DNA from: Glaciozyma antarctica PI12
Taxonomy: Eukaryota > Basidiomycota > Microbotryomycetes > Kriegeriales > Camptobasidiaceae
NCBI GenBank assembly: GCA_002917775.1
Contig: KZ627148.1
Span: 1,565,241 to 1,589,168 of the forward strand
DNA length: 23,928 bases
Reading direction: 5' to 3'
Shown: one piece after another, positions 747-23,928 of the stretch
How the letters are laid out: the number at the start of each line of letters is the position of its first letter
How positions within the stretch are numbered: position 1 is the stretch's first letter
Translations under genes and position numbers: made by a program
The notes under the pieces: model-generated
What the model was told of the DNA's origin: nothing
The model's database searches: none
The model's input: only the letters and a program-made list of their open reading frames with translations

Positions 747-2681
747 TCAACAAGGATCCCCGCGCTTCGCAGCCTCCTGCGCCTCAAACGCCTCCCGATG
801 CCCTCTAATCCTGCTCGCCAACCTCTTGTCCATCCTCCACCCCTTCCACCCCCTCTGTCCCTCCATCTCCTCAAACGCCTCCTCGACCTCCTCCCAAACC
901 CTAAGCACCAGCCGACTGTCCCACCCCGAGAGCTTCTCGAACGCCAGGACGAGCCAAAAGAGCTGCTTTGACGTCGGCGCCGTGCGCTTCCCTGCGAATG
1001 GAAGAGCGAGGGAGGGATCCAAAGGAGGGGAGAGGGCACGGAAGGCGTTGTAGAGAGATTGAAGCGCCGCGAGCGTCCAGGCGTTCTCCTCCGGCGCGTC
1101 GGGGCTTCGCTCCGCTAGCCGACGAAAGGCGGAAAAGGACTCGGTGCGAGCGATGGCGTTGGATGAGACGCGGTCGCCGCTGAGGAGACGAGGGTCGATG
1201 GCGAAAGAGTGGAGGGAGGGAGGAGGAGAGCCGTGGGTTGCGAAACCCCGGAAGAGGCAGGTGAAGGCGTGGAGAGTGGGAGGGTAGGAGTGGTGGTACG
1301 GTGGGGACTTGGTGACTTGGTCCCGCATGATGCTAAGCGCCTTATGGAGGTCCCCGCGGTGCGCAAACGCCTGAATGAGCATCGTGTACGTCGCGAGGTC
1401 CGGAGAGGGAGGGACCGTCCAGTGCGTCGTCGTCGATTCCGGTCCTCCCTCGCTCCGCGGCGCCAACGTTCCCAAATCGACCTGCTTCCCCGCCCGCATC
1501 GCCAAATACATCCTCATCGCGTCCTCGGTCGATCCCCGCTTCGCCATGATCCACATCATCGTGTTCCACAGCTCCGTCCACCTCGTCCCATCGTTCGCAG
1601 GATCCTCCCACAATCGCACGAATCCTCGCTCGAACTTGGCCCAAATCGTCTCGACGTGCGCTCCCCGCTCGTCGTCCTTGAGGAGGTGAATCCCGACCGT
1701 ATGAACGTCTCCCAGCACTCGCTCTCTCTGCATCCTCTCCTCCACCCCCTCAAAAAGTCCCCACGACCTCGCCTTGACCGCGACCCGGAGGAGCGAGTTG
1801 TACATCTCCGTCGTCGCCTGCGGGCTCACTTCTCCGCGCATATGCTTCCTCGACCATTGGGAGAAAAGCGAGGTCGCAGAAGCGATCTCCGGCGTCTGAC
1901 GGGGCGAACGATACGACCCCGCTGCGACGAGGATGAGCGCTACCCAGTCCTTGTTCCTCAGCCCGATTCCACCACCTCGTAGCTCCCCTAGCTCCCGATC
2001 CCGTTCGACTCCTTCGACAATCGGTGCAGGTGGAAGATGCTTGAGCGACCGCATCGCGAGTAGCTCGACGAGGACGAGGAGGCGCGAGAGACCCGTCCTC
2101 GTTCGCGGTTTTGCGCGCGAGAGGATCGTGAAAGCTCGACGGAGCTCGAAAAGGGAGAGTTGGATCGGTCGACGAGGGTCTTCTGCGCCATCTGTTGCAG
2201 CGCGTTCGGAGGAGGGGAAGTGGGAAGGAGGGAGGGAGGGGACGACGGAGGGGTATTGGAGGACTTTGACGAGAGATTCCCAGAGGGCGTCCGGGTCGTG
2301 TATCGCGGTGTAGAGCTGGGTGCGAAGGAGGGAGAGGAGAAAGTTTCGCTCTCGCGTGACGAGGGGGAGGTGCGGGGAGATGGAGGAACGAGCTGGTGGA
2401 GAGTCGACGGGGACGCGGCGGGGGGAGGGAGTCGTTAGAGGCGAGAGGGGGCGGAAGGCTTGTGCGAGGCGAAGCTGGCGGGGTGTGAGGATCTTCTTAG
2501 GGCGTGGGCGGAGTGGGAAGGAGGTGTTGGGAGGGAGGAGAGCTTCGAAGGAAGGGAGGTCGTCGAGGGTCGTTGCGGAGGTCGACGGGATGGGGTAGGC
2601 GTACTGCGGTGTTGAGTAAGCTCGTAGGTGACTGCAGGTGCAAGGGAGCAACGGCCTGGCTTGCCTCACCACAGGCAGCAT
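747..2681 (-). CDS. Mitochondrial PPR-like protein, intronless
   Basis: This is a single open frame of 644 residues. The start is the ATG at 2681; the codon before it is TTG. The N-terminus (MLPVVRQARPLLP..., with RAYSTPQYAYP near residue 25) is rich in Arg and Ser with almost no acidic residues, as in a mitochondrial presequence. Three helical-pair segments look like pentatricopeptide repeats: about 290-322 (around TEMYNSLLRVAVKARSWGL), 370-402 (WNTMMWIMAKRGSTEDAMRM) and 427-460 (DLATYTMLIQAFAHRGDLHK). PPR proteins bind organellar RNA and act in its processing, stability or translation. The target here cannot be told, and no named yeast orthologue is obvious. It is the only multi-exon-length gene in the window without an intron. 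It shares a short divergent promoter with the TTC4/CNS1 gene. Confidence 0.8.
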   Translation of the reverse strand: MLPVVRQARPLLPCTCSHLRAYSTPQYAYPIPSTSATTLDDLPSFEALLPPNTSFPLRPRPKKILTPRQLRLAQAFRPLSPLTTPSPRRVPVDSPPARSSISPHLPLVTRERNFLLSLLRTQLYTAIHDPDALWESLVKVLQYPSVVPSLPPSHFPSSERAATDGAEDPRRPIQLSLFELRRAFTILSRAKPRTRTGLSRLLVLVELLAMRSLKHLPPAPIVEGVERDRELGELRGGGIGLRNKDWVALILVAAGSYRSPRQTPEIASATSLFSQWSRKHMRGEVSPQATTEMYNSLLRVAVKARSWGLFEGVEERMQRERVLGDVHTVGIHLLKDDERGAHVETIWAKFERGFVRLWEDPANDGTRWTELWNTMMWIMAKRGSTEDAMRMYLAMRAGKQVDLGTLAPRSEGGPESTTTHWTVPPSPDLATYTMLIQAFAHRGDLHKALSIMRDQVTKSPPYHHSYPPTLHAFTCLFRGFATHGSPPPSLHSFAIDPRLLSGDRVSSNAIARTESFSAFRRLAERSPDAPEENAWTLAALQSLYNAFRALSPPLDPSLALPFAGKRTAPTSKQLFWLVLAFEKLSGWDSRLVLRVWEEVEEAFEEMEGQRGWKGWRMDKRLASRIRGHREAFEAQEAAKRGDPC

Positions 2682-2788
2682 CAAGTGAGTTGGCGGAGGG
2701 TGAGCTCGGAGTGGTCGGAGAACTTGGAAGTTGATAAGATTTCGACGACCTCACTTGTCCTTGAACGCCTCCCTCCGAGCTACTCAAG
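2682..2788. promoter_or_regulatory. Divergent promoter between PPR and TTC4 genes
   Basis: Only 107 bp separate the two start codons, which point away from each other. Both core promoters and leaders must fit here or overlap the neighbouring coding sequence. No TATA box is seen. Co-regulation of the two genes is possible but is only inferred from spacing. Confidence 0.55.
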
Positions 2789-5573: not shown

Positions 5574-7571
5574 ATGAACAATCCTCCATCGTCATCTCCT
5601 CCCGGCAGCGCCACTCGCTCCATCACCGCCGCATCGAACGCGCTCGCCGGGATTCAACCTCGCCAGCGCGCCGCTTCGTCGGACATCCCTGGCGCGAAGC
5701 GGAGCAAGCTCAACTCCTACACGGTGGCACAGCCTTCTCCCAACCTCGAATCCGCCACTCCTGAGCACTGGCGCCACTCGACCGCCACTACTCCGTCAGA
5801 CGACGCGCTCGAAGCCGCAGCGGACCAGTTCCAGCAATCCCTCGCCGCGCTCGAAGACTCGAGCAGCTGGGGATCTTCATTCTCCTTCTCCACCTCCGCC
5901 TCCGTCGTCAGCGATACCCCAACCGCGCTCGCGCGCGTCCAGGGTGTTCGTACGAACCTCCCCAGTCCCTCCGCCACTCCGCAATCCAACCAAGCTACCA
6001 AGCTTACGCCCATGCCTCGCCAACGACGCTCAACTCTCGCCCTCCCCACCTCCGCGCAACGACCCTTCCTCTCGGCTCGAGCAAGTCCCTCACCGTCAAA
6101 GCTCTCGCGCGAGCGACGGCGCTCGCTGCGGGAGTCATGGGTGCTGAGAGGGAAATTCAGGCAGGAGGCCCTGTCGAGGTCACTGGGTCGCAATTGGGCT
6201 CGTCGATGTTGAAACTGGGGATGCCGGAGAGGAGGAGCTCGGATCCGACGCCTGAGCCGGTCGAGGCGCTTTCGAGCAAGGAGCGCTTCGTCGCTGGACT
6301 TGTCGGTGAGTCTGACTCGGCGAATGAGGGTGGAGTGGGAGCTGATGAGTCGTTTGTAGGCGCCTCTGTTCTCGCCATCGAGTCCATCTGGGGACCGGCT
6401 GCCGCGCCCGACCCTTCGACTCCTCCGGAGAGCAGCGTGCTGCCTCTCCAGTGGTTCGTCAAGGAAGTCCTTCGCCGCTCCCGCACCTCGTGCTCGACGC
6501 TCCAACTCGCGCTCTACTACCTCCACAAAGCTCGTCGCGACATCCGCGACGTCGTCGCCAAAGCCGAAACCTGCCGCGAGGAGCTCGCTCAACCCGGCGC
6601 ACGAGCGATCATCATGGCCGAGCAGCGCCAGCGGAGGATTCGCGATGCGTACCCTTCGCCGCCGCTCTCGCCCGTCGACTCGATCGACTCTCTCGCGCTC
6701 GGAATCGACGTGACGGACGTGCAGAACTCGCCGATCCTCTGCGGTCGGCGGATGTTCCTCGCGTCCCTCATCGCCGCGAGCAAGTTCCTTCAGGACCGCA
6801 ACTACTCGAACCGCGCGTGGGCCAAGATCTCGGGACTTCCGACGACGGAGATCAACGTCAACGAGCGCTCGTTCCTTAACATGATGAAGTTCGAGCTTCA
6901 CATTGGCGCCGAAGACTTCCACAAGTGTGAGTCGTCTCTTCGTCGCATCTCTGGTTCAAGAGCTGATGAACGTCGCAGGGACCGAACGCCTCGCCTCGCT
7001 CGCGATCAAGGGAGCCGAAGTCGAATCCGCCTCCATCGCTGCGACGTCGACGCCCGACCGCTTTGGTCTCAGTCGCTCCGCCTCCGAGTACCCCGCCACT
7101 CCCATCACCCAGGAACTCTGCGCCGACAACTCCCCCTCCTCCCTTCCCCGCCCCGCCACCGTCCTCGGCCGCTCGAACAGCGATCCCGAGTTGGAGTCGA
7201 AGCGTCGCCTCGCCTCCCGTCCTATCGCCCCTTCCTCGAATCTTCGCCAGCAGTTCGTCGCTGCCGAATCGATGACGATCCCGCGCCAGAACGCCAGCCC
7301 GGAGCATAGCGAGGAGCCTTCGTCGTCGGAGGAAGAGGAGGGAGCCACTCGGCGCGTTCGCGCGATGCCCAAGCGTCCTTCTCTCGCCGTCAACACGTCG
7401 TCGTCGTTGTCGTCGTCCAGGAACGTTCTAAAGTCGTGGTCAACGACGCAGGGGATGGAGGGCGACTCGGGCTGTGGCGATCAGGCGAACGCGCCGTGGG
7501 TCTCGGTCGCAGTTCCAGGGACGGGGTCGGGATTCCCTTGGACGTCGGGCGCGGGCGTCGTCGCTCACTGA
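5574..7571 (+). CDS. Pho85-type (PCL) cyclin
   Basis: This is a cyclin of the Pcl1/2/5-Pas1 group, the activating partner of a Pho85/CDK5-like kinase. Likely exons are 5574-5949, 6003-6305, 6360-6926 and 6979-7571, giving 612 residues. The first 225 or so are Ser/Thr/Pro-rich and disordered. The cyclin box spans about residues 250-415, with QWFVKEVLRRSRTS, CGRRMFLASLIAASKFL and SKFLQDRNYSNRAWAKISG, the last being the hallmark of the family. A Ser-rich tail with an acidic cluster (SSSEEEEGATRR) follows. The start ATG has a good context (ACCAAAATG). Introns 2 and 3 are clean. The first splice is ambiguous: donors at 5946 or 5950 and acceptors ending at 6002 or 6085 both reach the frame with KALARATALAAGVMGAE. 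Which member of the PCL family it is cannot be decided. Confidence 0.87.
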
Positions 7572-12050: not shown

Positions 12051-14328
12051 CTAGAACCGCTGACCGAACTGCTGCTGCTGCTGCTGCATCATCATCCCAT
12101 TCTGGCTCGCCCGCCTATCGCTCCCTCCGTTCGCCGAGCTGATAGGGCAGTTCGAGTGCGCCGAGAGGATAGCGCGGAGGGAGGAGATCTCGTCCTTAAG
12201 GTTCGTGACGGTCGATTGAAGGGTGTCGTTGTCGGCGGTGAGGAACTCGACTTTGGACTGAAGGTTGGCGAGCCAGGCCTTTTTGCGTTGACGACATTTG
12301 AGCGCGGCTGCGAACGACGACGACGTTAGCGAAACGATTACGAACGAACGAGGGAAAGGAGTAACGCACCTTGTCGATTCCTCTCGAGGAAGTTCTTCCT
12401 CTTCTCCTCCTCCGTCTCATTCGGGTTATGCGCCTGAGGACTCATACTCCCCTCCTCTCCAGGATCATCAAAATCGTCCATCTCCTCCTCCCTCTCCGCC
12501 GCCTTCCCCTTCTTCCCCTTCTTCGCCACCGGGCCCTTCTTCTCCTCGTCCCCCTTCTTCCTCTTGTTCCCCCCCGCAGCAACCCTCTTCCCCTTCCCAC
12601 TCGTCGCCGGACTCTCTTTCGTCGACTCGGGTTTCGGAGCTACGACGGGGGCGATACCGTTCAGAGCCGAAGTCCCGATCGCGTCGTCGACTGGGACGGG
12701 GAAGCCTGGGCCGGAGAGGTTCGAGAGAGCGGCGGCGGCGACGACGGCGTCGTCGTTATGAGTCGACGAGAGGTCTTGCGCTTGGGAGAGGAGGTAGAGA
12801 GGGTTTTGGTTCGAGTACGCTTGAGGTTGGTGCGACTGCTGGTGCTGCTGCTGATGATGGAGTTGCTGCTGCATGAGTTGGTGCTGCTGTTGCTGTTGCT
12901 GCTGCGTCATGGGCGGGTACCCACTTTGCATGTGCGGGTTGTTGGCGAGTTGGAGAGGGTGCATCGACTGGGGCATGATCGATCGTGGAGGTGGCTGCTG
13001 TGACGCGGGTCGATGGAGGAGAGGAGCGGGAGGTCCTTGGACGTGCTGAGGCGTAAAGTCGCGGAGCTGTTGCTGGTGCTGCTGATGCGCGAGTTGGTGC
13101 TGCTGAACTTGCATATGCTGTTGCTGCTGCTGCTGTCCGCGAGGGTCGATTTGGCTCCTCGTCGACGAGACGATCCCACCCTTGCCGTCCGTCGCGCGCG
13201 CGAAGCTCGCCTCGAAATAGTTCCCCTCGTTCGCGCCCTCGTGCGGTCGAGAACCTCCTCCTCCCATCCCAGCCGCCATCGCGGCGTCCGACGTTCCGGG
13301 CGTGTTGTTCGTCATCATCGCGAAGAGGGCGGCGGTGGCGGGGGAAGGAGGGGGGAACGAGACGCTGTTGCCGCCGACGAGGGGAGTGAGGCCGGTTCGC
13401 ATCATGCTGGGGTCGAAGATGGAGCTCGAGACGGTGTGCGAAGGGCCGCTGAGGAGGGAGGGGGAGAGGGGGCCGGTGCGAAGCGAGTCGGAGCCCCATC
13501 CGAACCCTTGCAGCTCGCTCGCCGCGCCGGGAGACTCGATGAGGGAGAGGGGAGGGAGTTTGGGGATTCCGCCAGAGTTGGTGCGAGGGTTGGTCGGGAC
13601 GGGGCTGGTCGATCGTGCGCGACGAGGGGGGAGGCCGGAGGAGGGACCGGCGATGGCGTTGACGGTCGGTCCGCGAGCTTTTACGTAGTCGAACGAGTGC
13701 TCGGTGGGGCCGGACGAGGGGCGAGGACCGGAGAAGGACTGTTCGAAAGGGTTGGGTTCGAATTCGAGACCGTTCGAGTCGCCCGTAAAGGCTCCTCCTC
13801 GCGAGATGGGATCGGAGGAAGCGCGAATGTGTCGAGTTAGGGCTGCGGGTGGAAAGAACACCGAGTCAGTTCGCAAGTTCATAAAGCAGCCTGGTGGACG
13901 GTCGCCCTTTGCGCACGCCTTTGTGCGTCTTCCCTCGTCCCGCTCCCTCTCCAGTCTCTTCCCAGTCTACCGTGCCTCCACCATCGTGATAGTCCTTCGC
14001 ACACCAGTCCCTTAAACGAGCAGGAAGCGCCCCTACGATCTTCATCCCAGGTAGACTTTGCTCCCCCCCGGACGACCCTTCCCAGCACGACCGCGTGCAC
14101 GCGACAAGGTTCCCTCCCCTCTTCTCCCTTCCCAGATCCCTCCGCGATGCCGTAAAAGAAACGGCAAGACTAACGCATTCCCTCGTCCCGCTTTGTACCC
14201 ATCCCTTCCGGAGAATCGTCTTGGAGGCCAAACATGGAGAAATCGCCGTTTGGAATGAACGAGGTCGGGTCGGCCGGTGGAGCGGGAGGAGGAGGTGCTT
14301 GTCTTGACCGAGTACTGATACCTGCCAT
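12051..14328 (-). CDS. ATF1: Atf1/AtfA-type bZIP stress transcription factor
   Basis: Three exons (14199-14328, 12370-13842, 12051-12307) give 619 residues. The basic region and zipper lie at about 520-590: EEEKRKNFLERNRQAALKC, RQRKKAWLANLQSKVEFL, then heptad leucines. This is nearly the same as fission yeast Atf1 (EEKRKSFLERNRQAALKCRQ). The CPIS after the zipper echoes CPVA there. Upstream, FEPNPFEQSFSG (about 72-83), LTPLVGGNSVSFPPPSPATA and GNYFEASF match the N-terminal stress segment of Atf1. The middle is Gln/His-rich. The protein is a nuclear CREB/ATF factor controlled by the Sty1/Hog1 MAP kinase in relatives. The N-terminal exon (SFIPNGDFSMFGLQDDSPEG) is joined through an unusually long 356-nt intron (13843-14198) with a GTACAA donor, so that join is the weakest part. 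The bZIP intron (12308-12369) is clean. Confidence 0.92.
12833..13138. repeat. CAG/CTG-rich trinucleotide tracts in ATF1
   Basis: Several interrupted CTG runs on plus (CAG on the coding strand), near 12836-12906 and 13064-13135, encode the Gln/His-rich linker of ATF1. A further run at about 12068-12086 encodes a six-Gln tract near the C-terminus. Such tracts often vary in length between strains. Confidence 0.75.
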
Positions 14329-14858: not shown

Positions 14859-15957
14859 TCAAATCCTACTCGACGACTCCGAGTACTTCTCAAACTTCTC
14901 CTCGACCGCCTTCCAATCGACCGCCTTCCACCAGTTCTTGACGTACTCCTCGCGACCCCACACTCCGTAATCGGCCAAGTAGCAATGAGGATGCACGCTC
15001 AAGCACAACAACGGCTGGAGGTTCTTTCCTTGGGTACTCGTCCTGTTCGTCATCGACCTCATCGGCGGCGTAATCAACGAGCTCGCCAAATCGATCCTGC
15101 TCGCTCCATCCTCCCTCGCGTCCCCACTCCGCTCCTTGGGCTCCTTCTCCGTCGCCACCCACTCGCTCTTCACCTCGACCTCCTTCTCCGGCTCCGGGAT
15201 CGCCTCGCCCAAAACGCGAAGGTTGTGCCCACCGGGGAGGAGCTGCTTCCGCTCGTGCACGAGGACAGTTCCGCCCGCGTACGTGCCTACGACGCCTAGG
15301 GCGTTGCCTTCCGCGACGAGCCAGATGTAAGCGCCCGAGGAGGGGTGGAGGCCCGCCACGTGAGAGGAGAAGTGGGAGAAGAGGGAGGGGAACGACTTGA
15401 GGGGCGAGGCTCGGAGGGCTTGGGAGAGGGCGTGGTTCGGGTCGAGAGGGGATTGGGAGGAAGGCTCGACGGGGGTGGCGTTGGGGGTCTGCGGGAAAGG
15501 ACAGGGCTTAGGCGGGCTTCCGAGGAGAGGGAGAGAGCAGGGACGACGCACGAGGGTGGAGAGGAAGAAGCTGTTGTTGAGCGCTTCGCTGGCGTAGTTG
15601 AACACGAGCGCTTGCGTAGGGTCCGACGCCGTCTGCCTGACCGTCTGCAGCACCGAAAGTCCCTCATACTCAGTCCCTAAACGCCCACCCGACAAAAAAG
15701 TCAGCTCCCTCCTCCCCGTCTGCTCCCGAGACGAACAACGCACCTCGTACGAGCTCGTTTAACCGACTCAAAATCCCCTGCTGCCAGTCCATCGCTACCG
15801 TCTTGAGAGCTGAGGGGGAGAGGAAGGAGCCGACGCCGGCTTCGAGCGAGTAGGGGAGAGGCACGCGTTCGTGTAGGCATCGGCGGATGGCGAGGGCGGG
15901 GGAGAGGGAGGAGGCCGCTTGCCGCAGAGTGGGGCGGAGGGTTCGGAAGGCTGCCAT
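14859..15957 (-). CDS. Mitoribosomal small-subunit protein mS42/mS43 (SOD fold)
   Basis: Three exons (15744-15957, 15552-15676, 14859-15488) give 322 residues. The N-terminus (MAAFRTLRPTLRQAASS) is a mitochondrial presequence. The rest is a degenerate Fe/Mn superoxide-dismutase fold: HERVPLPYSLEAGVGSFLS, LVFNYASEALNNSFFLSTL, AYIWLVAEGNALGVVGTYAG, then LQPLLCLSVHPHCYLADYG and EYVKNWWKAVDWKAVEEKF. In fungi this architecture belongs to the 37S proteins Rsm26 (mS42) and Mrp1 (mS43); I cannot decide which. The SOD metal ligands are largely gone: NHS is replaced by NNS, and DVWEH by SVHPH. This fits a structural ribosomal protein and argues against enzyme activity. A linker (about 115-150) and a second insert with charged repeats (about 225-275) lengthen it relative to SOD. 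Confidence 0.87.
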
Positions 15958-21076: not shown

Positions 21077-23928
21077 ATGCGACCCGATTGCAAGCTGCCT
21101 GTTGCCGCCCTCCTGGGTGGTCTCATGGCCTCACTACTCATCACAACCGCCGCCGCCTCCTCAGGTGGCTTCGGATTCCGCCGGCTCATGCGAAACACAG
21201 CTGTGGCGTGTGGAGACGGGTACGTGGGACCGAAGCATTGGGGGAGACGGGTAGCTGGCTTCGACCTTCTCCAGCTTCTCAATCAACACCACCTCCAACG
21301 CCTGCGACTGCGTCTCTCCTCGCAGGCTCCAAGTCAGCCCGCTCCAATGTCTCGCTCCTTGCGAAGATGGGACGTACCCCGCCATGTCTCAGCGCAACAG
21401 TACGGCCTTTCTCTCATTTCTTGGAGCTCGTCAGCTGATTTTCGTGCGCTCTTTCGCTCAGCTGCCGTCTGTAACCCCTGCCCCACCTGGTTCGCCACCT
21501 GCTCCTCCTCAACGCTCGCACTCTCATGGTAAGCCTTCAAACCTTTTTGGGGGTAGGAAAGCTCGCTAACCCGACGCAACCAACAGCAAGTCGGGCTACT
21601 TCCTCTCCGAAGGCAAATGCGTTATCGCTGGCGATTGCCCCGACAAGACGTACCCCAAGATCAAGGCGAACACCTGTGCACCGTGCTATGACAGGGATGC
21701 TCTCAGCTGCGCCAATGGCAAGTTCGGCAGGGCGACTTCGTGGTTCGTCTTTTCTGCGCGCTCGGGGACCCGCTCGCTGACGACTTCCTCGGCAGCGATA
21801 CGCTCTACCTCTACCAAGGCAGCTGCGTTTACGAGTCACACTGCGGACCAGGAACTGTGCCTGAACGTACGCGTAGGTTGTTCCTTGCTGCGTCTCGCGC
21901 AGGGCTCAAATTAAGCGACGACTCCTCCTCTCAGTACGCATCTGCAAGGAACCTACCTGCCCAGTTGGCCAGTTTTCAGCCTGTAACGACTGCGGCAGCA
22001 ATGCTTTGACTTGCGAGTCTCCGACTCACGCTTTCACCTGGTACGCCTTCTCATCGCAAAGTTACGACCGTCCCCTGACTTGCTCCTTCATCGCAGCCGT
22101 CCCTCCTACTACCTCAACAGCGGAGCCTGCGTTCTTCACTGCCCGATTGGTAGCTACATTCAGCCTGGTAGGTTCTCCCTCTTGCGTGGTTTTCGGCAGC
22201 AGCTGATCGATCTCGAGTCGCAGGCGACGGTTCCTCACCCGACGTCTGCAAAGTCTGCGCACCTGGCACGCACTCCATCAAAGAGAGAACCGCCTGCATT
22301 CCTTGCGGGGACCCTAATGCGCTCACCTGCTCGGAGAGCGGAGCTTCGTTGACCTGGTGAGCAGGACCGTCCTTTGCTCTTCTTCGCTGCTGACTTCTCC
22401 TTCTCCTCCTCAGCAATTTTCGTGCACTCGTCGTCGTCCAAGGCGTCTGCTCCTGGTAAAATTTGCTGCTCTTCGCTTCTCGAGCACATGCCTGACGTTG
22501 GGTATGCAGCGCGAACAAGCCGAGCTACCTCACCGCCCACGGGCAGTGTGTCGACTGCCAGGATCCTTCTGGGTTGACCTGCGATAGCTCTGGATCTCTA
22601 ACCTGGTGCGTAGAACTCTTCATGTTCTTATGCAAGACCTGGCTGACGCCTCGTTCTCTCTCAGCAAGCCTGGCCTCGCCCCCGTCAACGGCGTCTGTGC
22701 ATGGTGAGTCTCGCACTGATCTTACGGCCGTCGCTGATTCACTTATTCTTGTTCAGCACGAGGCCAAATACGTACCTCGACAGCGCAGCAAAATGCTCTG
22801 CTTGCCGAGATAGGAACGGGCTCTCGTGTGACAGTTCGGGCTCCCTCACCTGGTACGTCTCTGAATCTCGTACGGTAGCTTGTTCTAACACCACCTTCGC
22901 AGCAAATCGGACGCGCTGAAGGTCCTGAATGGAGTCTGCGACTGGTACTTGCTTCCCCCTTTTGATTACGGGGACGACGCTGACCCCGAGGATCCAGCAT
23001 CGACGCTACGCGGTTCCTCAGCAGTTGGGGAACTTGTACGGTCTGCCGAGATCCTGGAGCTCTCACCTGCGACGGTAACGGCGGAGGATCTCTTACTTGG
23101 TAAGCTCGCTCTCCCCCTCGCTGACCCTCGCTGATCACTTTTTCGCAGCGCGAACCCGGCGTACGTGGTTCGCAACGGTCAATGCGTCTGGTGAGGAGCT
23201 CCCGCTCCTTGTTCGGCGGAGCAGATAGGCTGATTGGCGCTCGAGCAGCCGACATCCTTCTTGCGGAAACTGTCCGGACGATCCAAACGCTATCACATGC
23301 GACAGCGGAGGATCTTTGACTTGGTGAGCTCCTCCTTCGCGTGATAGCCTTTCGAGCAGCTTGCTGACACCTGCATCTACAGCTCGAGCCCGGCTCTTTC
23401 GGTCGTCGGCGGCGTCTGCGTCTGGTGACGTTTCTCGAGCGTGCCTTGCGAAGGGCTGAGCGAGGCTGATCGCTCGAAACAGTACCAACCCGGCGAGCTT
23501 CCTCAACGCCGGCCTGTGCACTCAATGTGCAGATCCCAATGCCCTCACCTGTGACATCGGCGGAGCTTTGACTTGGTGAGCTCCTCCTTCGCGTGATAGC
23601 CTTTCAAGCAGCTCGCTGACACCTGAATCTACAGCTCGAGCCCGGCTCTTTCGGTCGTCGGCGGCGTCTGCGTCTGGTGACGTTTCTCGAGCGTGCCTTG
23701 CGAAGGGCTGAGCGAGGCTGATCGCTCGAAACAGTACCAACCCGGCGAGCTTCCTCAACGCCGGCCTGTGCACTCAATGTGCGAGTACTACCTAGTCCCG
23801 TCCCTACCCTACCGTTCGTACGAAGTACCGGTCGGACCGACGGTTCGAACCTTACGGGTAGGGGGAAGTACGGTCCTCCGTCGCGTGATAGCCTTTCGAG
23901 CAGCTCGCTGACACCTGAATCTACAGCT
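21077..23928 (+). CDS. Secreted cysteine-rich modular repeat protein (3' incomplete)
   Basis: Exons: 21077-21219, 21275-21399, 21462-21528, 21587-21742, 21796-21866, 21935-22040, 22097-22167, 22224-22356, 22414-22455, 22510-22605, 22665-22703, 22757-22852, 22903-22944, 22998-23099, 23149-23190, 23249-23323, 23383-23424, 23483-23575, 23635-23676 and a partial one from 23735. At least 527 residues are visible. The start has a signal peptide (KLPVAALLGGLMASLLITTA). Cysteine-dense modules follow, such as GQCVDCQDPSGLTC, DSSGSLTC, KPGLAPVNGVCAC and NALTCDIGGALTC, resembling furin-like/growth-factor-receptor Cys-rich repeats. From exon 8 on, long exons (75-133 nt) alternate with short ones (39-42 nt). 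Fifteen of 19 introns split a Cys codon after TG. A secreted or surface role is inferred; no enzyme domain or anchor is visible. The frame is disturbed near the right edge, where a palindromic segment intervenes, so the end is uncertain. Confidence 0.82.
23311..23928 (+). repeat. Tandem exon-pair repeat, period 252 then 292
   Basis: The unit is short exon, intron, long exon, intron. Positions 23383-23530 and 23635-23782 are identical over 148 nt, including a 58-nt intron. Similarity extends left through the preceding intron: 23324-23382 against 23576-23634, both 59 nt, with only a few differences. A third copy of that intron resumes at about 23874 and runs to the window end, with the spacing lengthened by 40 nt. 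Confidence 0.9.
23783..23873. repeat. Palindrome-rich 91-nt segment in last repeat copy
   Basis: This replaces the 51 nt (23531-23581) expected from the preceding repeat. It holds perfect palindromes TTCGTACGAA (23815-23824), ACCGGT (23827-23832) and GGTTCGAACC (23842-23851). It also has an imperfect inverted repeat with arms at 23802-23818 (CCCTACCC...GTTCG) and 23846-23863 (CGAAC...GGGTAGGG). No target-site duplication is evident. It may be a small hairpin element, a recombination scar or an assembly error. Confidence 0.6.

Follow-up and report, generated by a model that had tools for sequence, protein, structure and literature searches.

A predicted cysteine-rich gene of the basidiomycete Glaciozyma antarctica PI12 is interrupted again and again inside its cysteine codons, and the question raised by this locus is whether such a layout was selected as a means of diversifying a protein or was inherited as the gene grew. 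The window, by which we mean the whole stretch of 23,928 nt that was analysed, corresponds to positions 1565241-1589168 of contig KZ627148.1 (C3), and the genome searched comprises 20 Mb in 18 contigs. In the hand-curated model, the gene starts with an ATG at 21077, and its 3' side is cut by a run of N at the end of the window. Neighbouring open reading frames matched PPR (747-2684, minus strand), cyclin (6137-7309, plus strand), Aft1 HRA (12338-13882, minus strand; Aft1 domains being fungal) and the C-terminal domain of Fe/Mn superoxide dismutase (14859-15743, minus strand), while two of the six tested had no domain match.

The gene model is a prediction from DNA that combines a dynamic-programming search for splice sites with hand curation. 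The search was run with relaxed thresholds and without any preference for cysteine codons, branch-point-like motifs being rewarded. By hand, intron 1 (21220-21325) was added, the donor of intron 2 was shifted and an intron at 22546-22587 was dropped; none of these three is Cys-split, and the computed and the hand model alike have 19 introns, with the same 15 Cys-split. The short GT-AG introns with CTRAY motifs, like the Aft1 neighbour, are in keeping with a fungus, and the predicted protein contains 64 Cys in 529 residues. Based on the gene model and an alignment of its six-cysteine modules, three intron positions were assigned by hand: a, which lies in phase 1 where modules meet, and b and c, which interrupt the codons of Cys4 and Cys6, respectively, in phase 2. 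The features are as follows, with a slash marking the point of interruption:

21077-21219, plus strand: exon 1, with the ATG and a hydrophobic, signal-peptide-like stretch (by eye); ends GG/ in phase 2, in a Gly codon; border set by hand
21326-21399, plus strand: exon 2, ends in phase 1 (A/CT), position a; borders set by hand
21462-21528, plus strand: exon 3, ends TG/C, position b (Cys4); computed and hand model
21587-21742, plus strand: exon 4, 156 nt, 2-2 symmetric, 6 Cys; ends TG/C (b)
21796-21872, plus strand: exon 5, ends in phase 1 (a); computed and hand model
21935-22040, plus strand: exon 6, ends TG/C (b); computed and hand model
22097-22167, plus strand: exon 7, ends in phase 1 (a); computed and hand model
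22224-22356, plus strand: exon 8, ends TG/C (b); computed and hand model
22414-22455, plus strand: exon 9, with which the short exons begin, 42 nt, 2 Cys; interrupted at TG/C, position c (Cys6)
22510-22605, plus strand: exon 10, long, 96 nt, 4 Cys, b
22665-22703, plus strand: exon 11, short, 39 nt, 2 Cys, c
22757-22852, plus strand: exon 12, long, 96 nt, 4 Cys, b
22903-22944, plus strand: exon 13, short, 42 nt, 2 Cys, c
22998-23099, plus strand: exon 14, long, 102 nt, 4 Cys, b
23149-23190, plus strand: exon 15, short, 42 nt, 2 Cys, c
23249-23323, plus strand: exon 16, a shortened long exon, 75 nt, 4 Cys, b
23383-23424, plus strand: exon 17, short, TG/T, c; identical to exon 19
23483-23575, plus strand: exon 18, long, 93 nt, 4 Cys, b
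23635-23676, plus strand: exon 19, short, TG/T, c
23735-23783, plus strand: exon 20, the opening part of a long exon, after which the normal sequence stops
23293-23782, plus strand: 1.9 copies of a 252-bp period, a recent tandem duplication that takes in introns
23784-23876, plus strand: anomalous stretch where the remainder of exon 20 and a donor would be expected; not read as exon
23877-23928, plus strand: 3' part of a further copy of the b intron, running into a 4,014-bp run of N

On the minus strand, a 260-aa open frame lies antisense to the array (22743-23525), perhaps a by-product of composition.

A preliminary description of the locus had placed 15 of the 19 complete introns after the TG of a Cys codon, twelve of them in a row between 22357 and 23734, and both counts proved exact. 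The split codons (TG/C or TG/T) are those of introns 3, 4, 6 and 8-19, the last twelve forming the uninterrupted series in the hand model. Position b accounts for nine of them (3, 4, 6, 8, 10, 12, 14, 16 and 18) and position c for six (9, 11, 13, 15, 17 and 19); introns 2, 5 and 7 are phase 1 at position a, and intron 1 lies at GG/G in phase 2. All 12 exons concerned (exons 4 and 9-19) have a length that is a multiple of three and phase 2 on both sides, so that, as had been proposed, the frame and the junction cysteine survive the gain or loss of an exon.

If the introns were independent, the probability of finding at least 15 of 19 Cys-split would be 4e-18, a figure that is inapt because most of them are duplicated copies; counted by position class, with two of the four classes falling on Cys, it is about 0.009. 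The pattern is largely a matter of inheritance, that is, of homology of one or two intron positions that were copied together with the module. Comparisons between introns revealed that the recent pairs stand out (z 14.4 for introns 17 and 19, z 11.8 for introns 16 and 18, the next score being 4.5). Among older introns, the median z is 0.7 within b, 0.67 within c and 0.83 between classes; those of the same class are no more alike than those of different classes, and their common descent is thus argued from position alone. Independent insertion at many Cys codons was set aside, rather than disproved, because b and c are constant positions of the module. In a comparison of the c headers, designed to relate c either to b or to the module border and from which one of six (exon 16) was left out because it is truncated, four of the five lean slightly towards the headers found after Cys4 (z 1.6 to 2.2 versus -0.6 to 1.0) and the fifth scored 0.7 with the after-Cys4 headers versus 0.9, all below the 3.5 to 6.1 of the positive controls.

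Directly beyond the window, the run of 4,014 N (L002:3070-7083), taken as an assembly gap, is followed by the 3' part of the gene (L002:7084-7736), which ends in TAG. All four introns of this part are Cys-split in the hand model (positions c, b, b and b), bringing the visible gene to 19 of 23; three long exons stand in a row, and the three complete exons are again 2-2 and multiples of three. Dynamic programming was run here in three starting phases, and with a carried T it yielded Cys introns 1 to 3 of this part as they stand in the final model. The ends that it favoured lie past the TAG at L002:7736; the fourth acceptor and the stop were set by hand in the reading that keeps the Cys pattern, and the last junction and the end of the gene therefore lean towards the finding. 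The C-terminus of this hand model reads MPGFNLNIFSGQCV-stop, in which no membrane or GPI-like tail was recognized by eye, the last junction and stop being the hand-chosen ones, and the 3' part matched no Pfam family.

The 93 bp at 23784-23876 are unlike the repeat, matched only their own place in the genome and fold no better than shuffled sequences. A mobile element was rejected on the grounds of this single genomic place and ordinary folding, and the stretch, which adjoins the gap, is probably a contig-edge artefact. Filled entirely with array, the run of N would hold about 16 units of 252 bp, its length being possibly the assembler's figure only. Because N runs of about 4 kb cut off two arrays of the family (the present one at L002:3070-7083 and that of a relative at C5:1079801-1083692), the true number of copies is probably higher than it appears.

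Searches of the same genome revealed at least three relatives, two of them (on contigs C5 and C6) by protein searches and one (on C7) by a family search at E<=1; these counts are lower bounds, and more relatives may exist. The C5 and C6 relatives have the six-cysteine module in common with the window gene but carry the introns of their arrays in phase 1 at module borders, whereas those of the window gene lie in Cys codons. The prediction that homologues would keep their introns in Cys codons failed in these three relatives, where only 3 of 32 modelled introns are Cys-split (3/19 in C5, 0/7 in C6 and 0/6 in C7) and the others are mostly phase 1 at module borders. Fisher tests of this proportion gave p 7e-7 against the 15/19 of the window and p 3e-8 against 19/23, values that overstate the case because duplicated introns are treated as independent.

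Intron 1 of the C5 relative (GG/C) is of the window-gene kind, position b occurs three times and position a fifteen times, the phases being direct for introns 2-11, following from a frame restart at exon 13 for introns 13-19 and set to 1 by that restart for intron 12. Exons 9-19 form an array with one module each and phase-1 introns, which runs into the N run at C5:1079801-1083692. This array is comparable to that of the window gene, and the Cys rule is thus unneeded for expansion. Exon 12 of the same relative (L015) is 158 nt long between neighbours that are multiples of three, which points to a frame shift or an assembly error. The C6 relative has seven modelled introns, all phase 1, and its protein matched no Pfam family; downstream of the modules, this locus (L016) seems to run on into non-repeat sequence with further possible introns. 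The C7 relative, with six introns that are all phase 1, encodes a protein with growth-factor-receptor-like Cys repeats and, by eye, a transmembrane-like segment (L036:2054-4865) and is without a tandem exon array. Its repeats weakly match Furin-like_2 and Giardia VSP, below cut-off, and profile comparison (hhalign) with the family of the window gene gave a probability of 41% (E 0.00028).

Within the window, the array retains the trace of recent growth. The segment 23293-23530 is identical at 230 of 238 sites, introns included, to its copy 252 bp further on, and this identity falls off leftwards within exon 16, at what may be the edge of a duplication or of a conversion. Exons 17 and 19 are identical, and similarity is 47-65% in the remaining pairs of one type within exons 9-19. 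The alternation of long and short exons announced in the preliminary description is unbroken from exon 9 to exon 20 and breaks down past the gap, where the three long exons follow each other. Taken together, the unbroken alternation and the loss of identity inside exon 16 indicate a long-plus-short pair as the unit, with an exonic edge, while the three consecutive long exons indicate that this pair was not the sole unit. The enlargement of the gene by tandem duplication of small exons is thus supported by sequence comparison, yet the evidence is for a two-exon unit of 252 bp and does not extend to the shuffling of single exons. The likeliest unit of recent growth is the long-plus-short pair, multiplied by exchange inside the repeats, and such exchange keeps the frame whatever the intron phase.

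The module itself follows the spacing C1-x2-C2-x6..7-C3-x7..10-C4-x9..11-C5-x1..8-C6. In an alignment of 17 hand-picked modules (eight from this gene, six from C5 and three from C6), each has exactly six cysteines, five of which are invariant in position; Cys3 is in register in 15 rows and off by one in two. The suggested kinship with growth-factor-receptor or furin-like repeats was borne out by weak profile matches, and in sequence the modules appear weakly furin-like. The proposed profile search was answered in part: 3 of the 17 single modules matched the Pfam family Furin-like_2 (PF15913; best E 0.00069), but the whole window protein scored 16.9 bits, under the gathering cut-off of 28. The best score in the genome, at the C7 locus (26.5 bits), is also under this cut-off, and the family search, run at E<=1, gave a hit in 1 of 14 control genomes as well. 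Viral and prokaryote collections, searched with a single-protein query, yielded no relatives.

Among structures in the PDB, the first match of the module profile was R-spondin-2, aligned with profile positions 1-41 at an E value of only 0.33. R-spondin repeats have eight Cys and four disulphides, compared with six Cys in the aligned modules, and two cysteines in the aligned stretch of R-spondin-2 are absent from the window family. According to the R-spondin-1 list, these two presumably form one disulphide pair, which would leave C2-C3, C4-C5 and C6 with the next C1. If the modules pair like R-spondin furin repeats, the array exons would correspond to whole disulphide-closed hairpins. In a study of R-spondin, each repeat is described as a ladder of hairpins, with three hairpins and four disulphides, and the furin domains are delimited on their disulphide pattern (39-94 and 97-142), limits that agree with the pairing proposed here (PMC3905715).

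Cysteine parity was counted in two ways. When a split codon is credited to the upstream exon, even numbers are found in 19 of 19 complete window exons, one cysteine of exon 1 lying in its signal-like part, and in all three internal post-gap exons, the last exon having 1 Cys; the same holds for 17 of 18 scored exons in C5 (exon 1 odd, exons 12 and 20 unscored), 8 of 8 in C6 (its start and the end of exon 8 being uncertain) and 6 of 7 in C7. Credited downstream, array exons 9-19 read 2, 4, 2, 4 and so on, the last four exons of the gene read 4, 6, 4 and 2, and an even count is found in 14 of 19 exons of the window, exons 3 and 5-8 being those with an odd one. Such parity is suggestive only, because repeats are not independent.

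These observations bear on three explanations other than descent. The array might be partly an assembly artefact, with introns that are not spliced as drawn, and indeed the window closes in an anomalous stretch and a run of N. We regard this as very improbable, given that the frame stays open across all 19 introns, that the C5 and C6 loci carry the same module and that adjacent copies differ at 8 of 238 sites; moreover, of the 23 introns, 19 of which lie in the window and 4 past the gap, 20 contain the branch-point-like motif CTRAY, versus 3.2 expected by shuffling, an enrichment that is partly built in because the search rewarded such motifs. Phase-2 introns in Cys codons might also have been selected so that single exons can duplicate, drop out or be skipped, thereby diversifying a surface protein. 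The 12 complete 2-2 exons of the window and the three past the gap, all multiples of three, would suit this purpose, as would the even number of cysteines per 2-2 exon, by which exon gain or loss would leave no Cys unpaired, and the three long post-gap exons, from which alternation is not obligatory. The unbroken alternation of exons 9-20, a recent duplication whose identity is lost inside an exon, the comparable array of a relative with phase-1 introns and the absence of an anchor by eye all argue the other way. Evidence from Schizophyllum commune points in both directions: in one study, exon skipping makes up 1% of coding-region alternative-splicing events at the transcript level, intron retention being the commonest, but when junctions were analysed separately, 1,527 skipping events were counted within coding regions (PMC5034255). 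If a Cys-split intron of the window gene were retained, Cys would become Trp, and in 10 of 15 cases (introns 3, 8, 9, 11 and 14-19) the intron starts with GTRA after the TG, so that the retained sequence reads TGG-TRA with an immediate in-frame stop. The layout had been called ideal for generating diversity, a view at odds with the C5 array, the low share of skipping in that fungus and these stops; selection for such a device appears distinctly unlikely, and a system that creates diversity by skipping, though possible, is not indicated.

A further explanation holds that exon borders were selected to coincide with disulphide borders, introns being tolerated or gained only between disulphide-closed units and the Cys codons that open each hairpin being favoured as intron sites. 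The upstream-credited parity of the window gene and its three relatives, the 2, 4, 2, 4 reading of exons 9-19 in the downstream count and, provided that the R-spondin pattern applies, the placement of b and c at the opening Cys of consecutive hairpins are consistent with it. Yet with about three free spacings, chance alone would yield such a fit about once in 8 to 10 by our own estimate, the two ways of crediting disagree (a last exon with 1 Cys in one, 14 of 19 even in the other), position a would cut the hairpin between C6 and the next C1, and the disulphides are themselves deduced from the R-spondin comparison; we consider this selection unlikely. Somewhat less doubtful, and put forward tentatively, is that the borders shifted from an a/b to a b/c register in which each array exon would hold one or two disulphide-closed rungs, the array being registered to the disulphides. 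In that case, frame, junction cysteine and cysteine parity would be preserved at once, and if exon borders do match disulphide units, the gene would show in a clear-cut way how its structure follows that of the protein.

The account that we favour, and consider probable, is that of a secreted, probably unanchored and disulphide-rich rod of furin-like six-cysteine modules, in which the Cys-split pattern was inherited and the array expanded pair by pair. In an ancestral gene, introns would have lain in phase 1 between modules (a) and in phase 2 within the codon of Cys4 (b), and both positions are still seen in the C5 relative. The array of the window gene would then have lost a and acquired in its place a phase-2 intron in the Cys6 codon (c), a replacement that makes all array exons 2-2 symmetric, and unequal exchange between repeats would have multiplied the long-plus-short pair, the introns being copied passively. 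The product may be an extracellular structural or adhesive protein of variable length, most likely a secreted rod in the wall or the medium whose length varies with repeat number. Its designation as a surface protein is unproven, as the C-terminus shows no anchor-like feature by eye, while exon 1 encodes, again by eye, a signal-like N-terminus.

Overall, the layout is real, orderly and mostly explained by descent. The relative with another intron phase in the same genome provides a natural control for the role of phase in repeat growth, and comparison of the two arrays suggests that repeat expansion carries introns passively. Both also illustrate how long arrays are lost by assemblies, since each ends in a run of N. 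Among the titles listed in the literature searches, none describes a fungal family with such a layout, and the nearest published one found is that of the Tetrahymena genes with leucine-rich repeats, described as tandem symmetric exons of exactly 90 bp with phase-2 introns and a junction residue shared by neighbours, in thousands of genes of this ciliate, whose growth is attributed in that study to clonal expansion and unequal crossing over (PMC6564038). Consecutive phase-2 exons with lengths that are multiples of three are likewise found in the window gene (the 11 exons 9-19, as well as exon 4 and three past the gap). In contrast to the uniform 90-bp leucine-rich exon of Tetrahymena, this single gene uses two exon sizes (39-42 and 75-102 nt), is rich in cysteine and has cysteines at its junctions. 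Symmetric exon arrays are already known as a kind, of which this gene is a probable fungal example, with another module and in another taxon.
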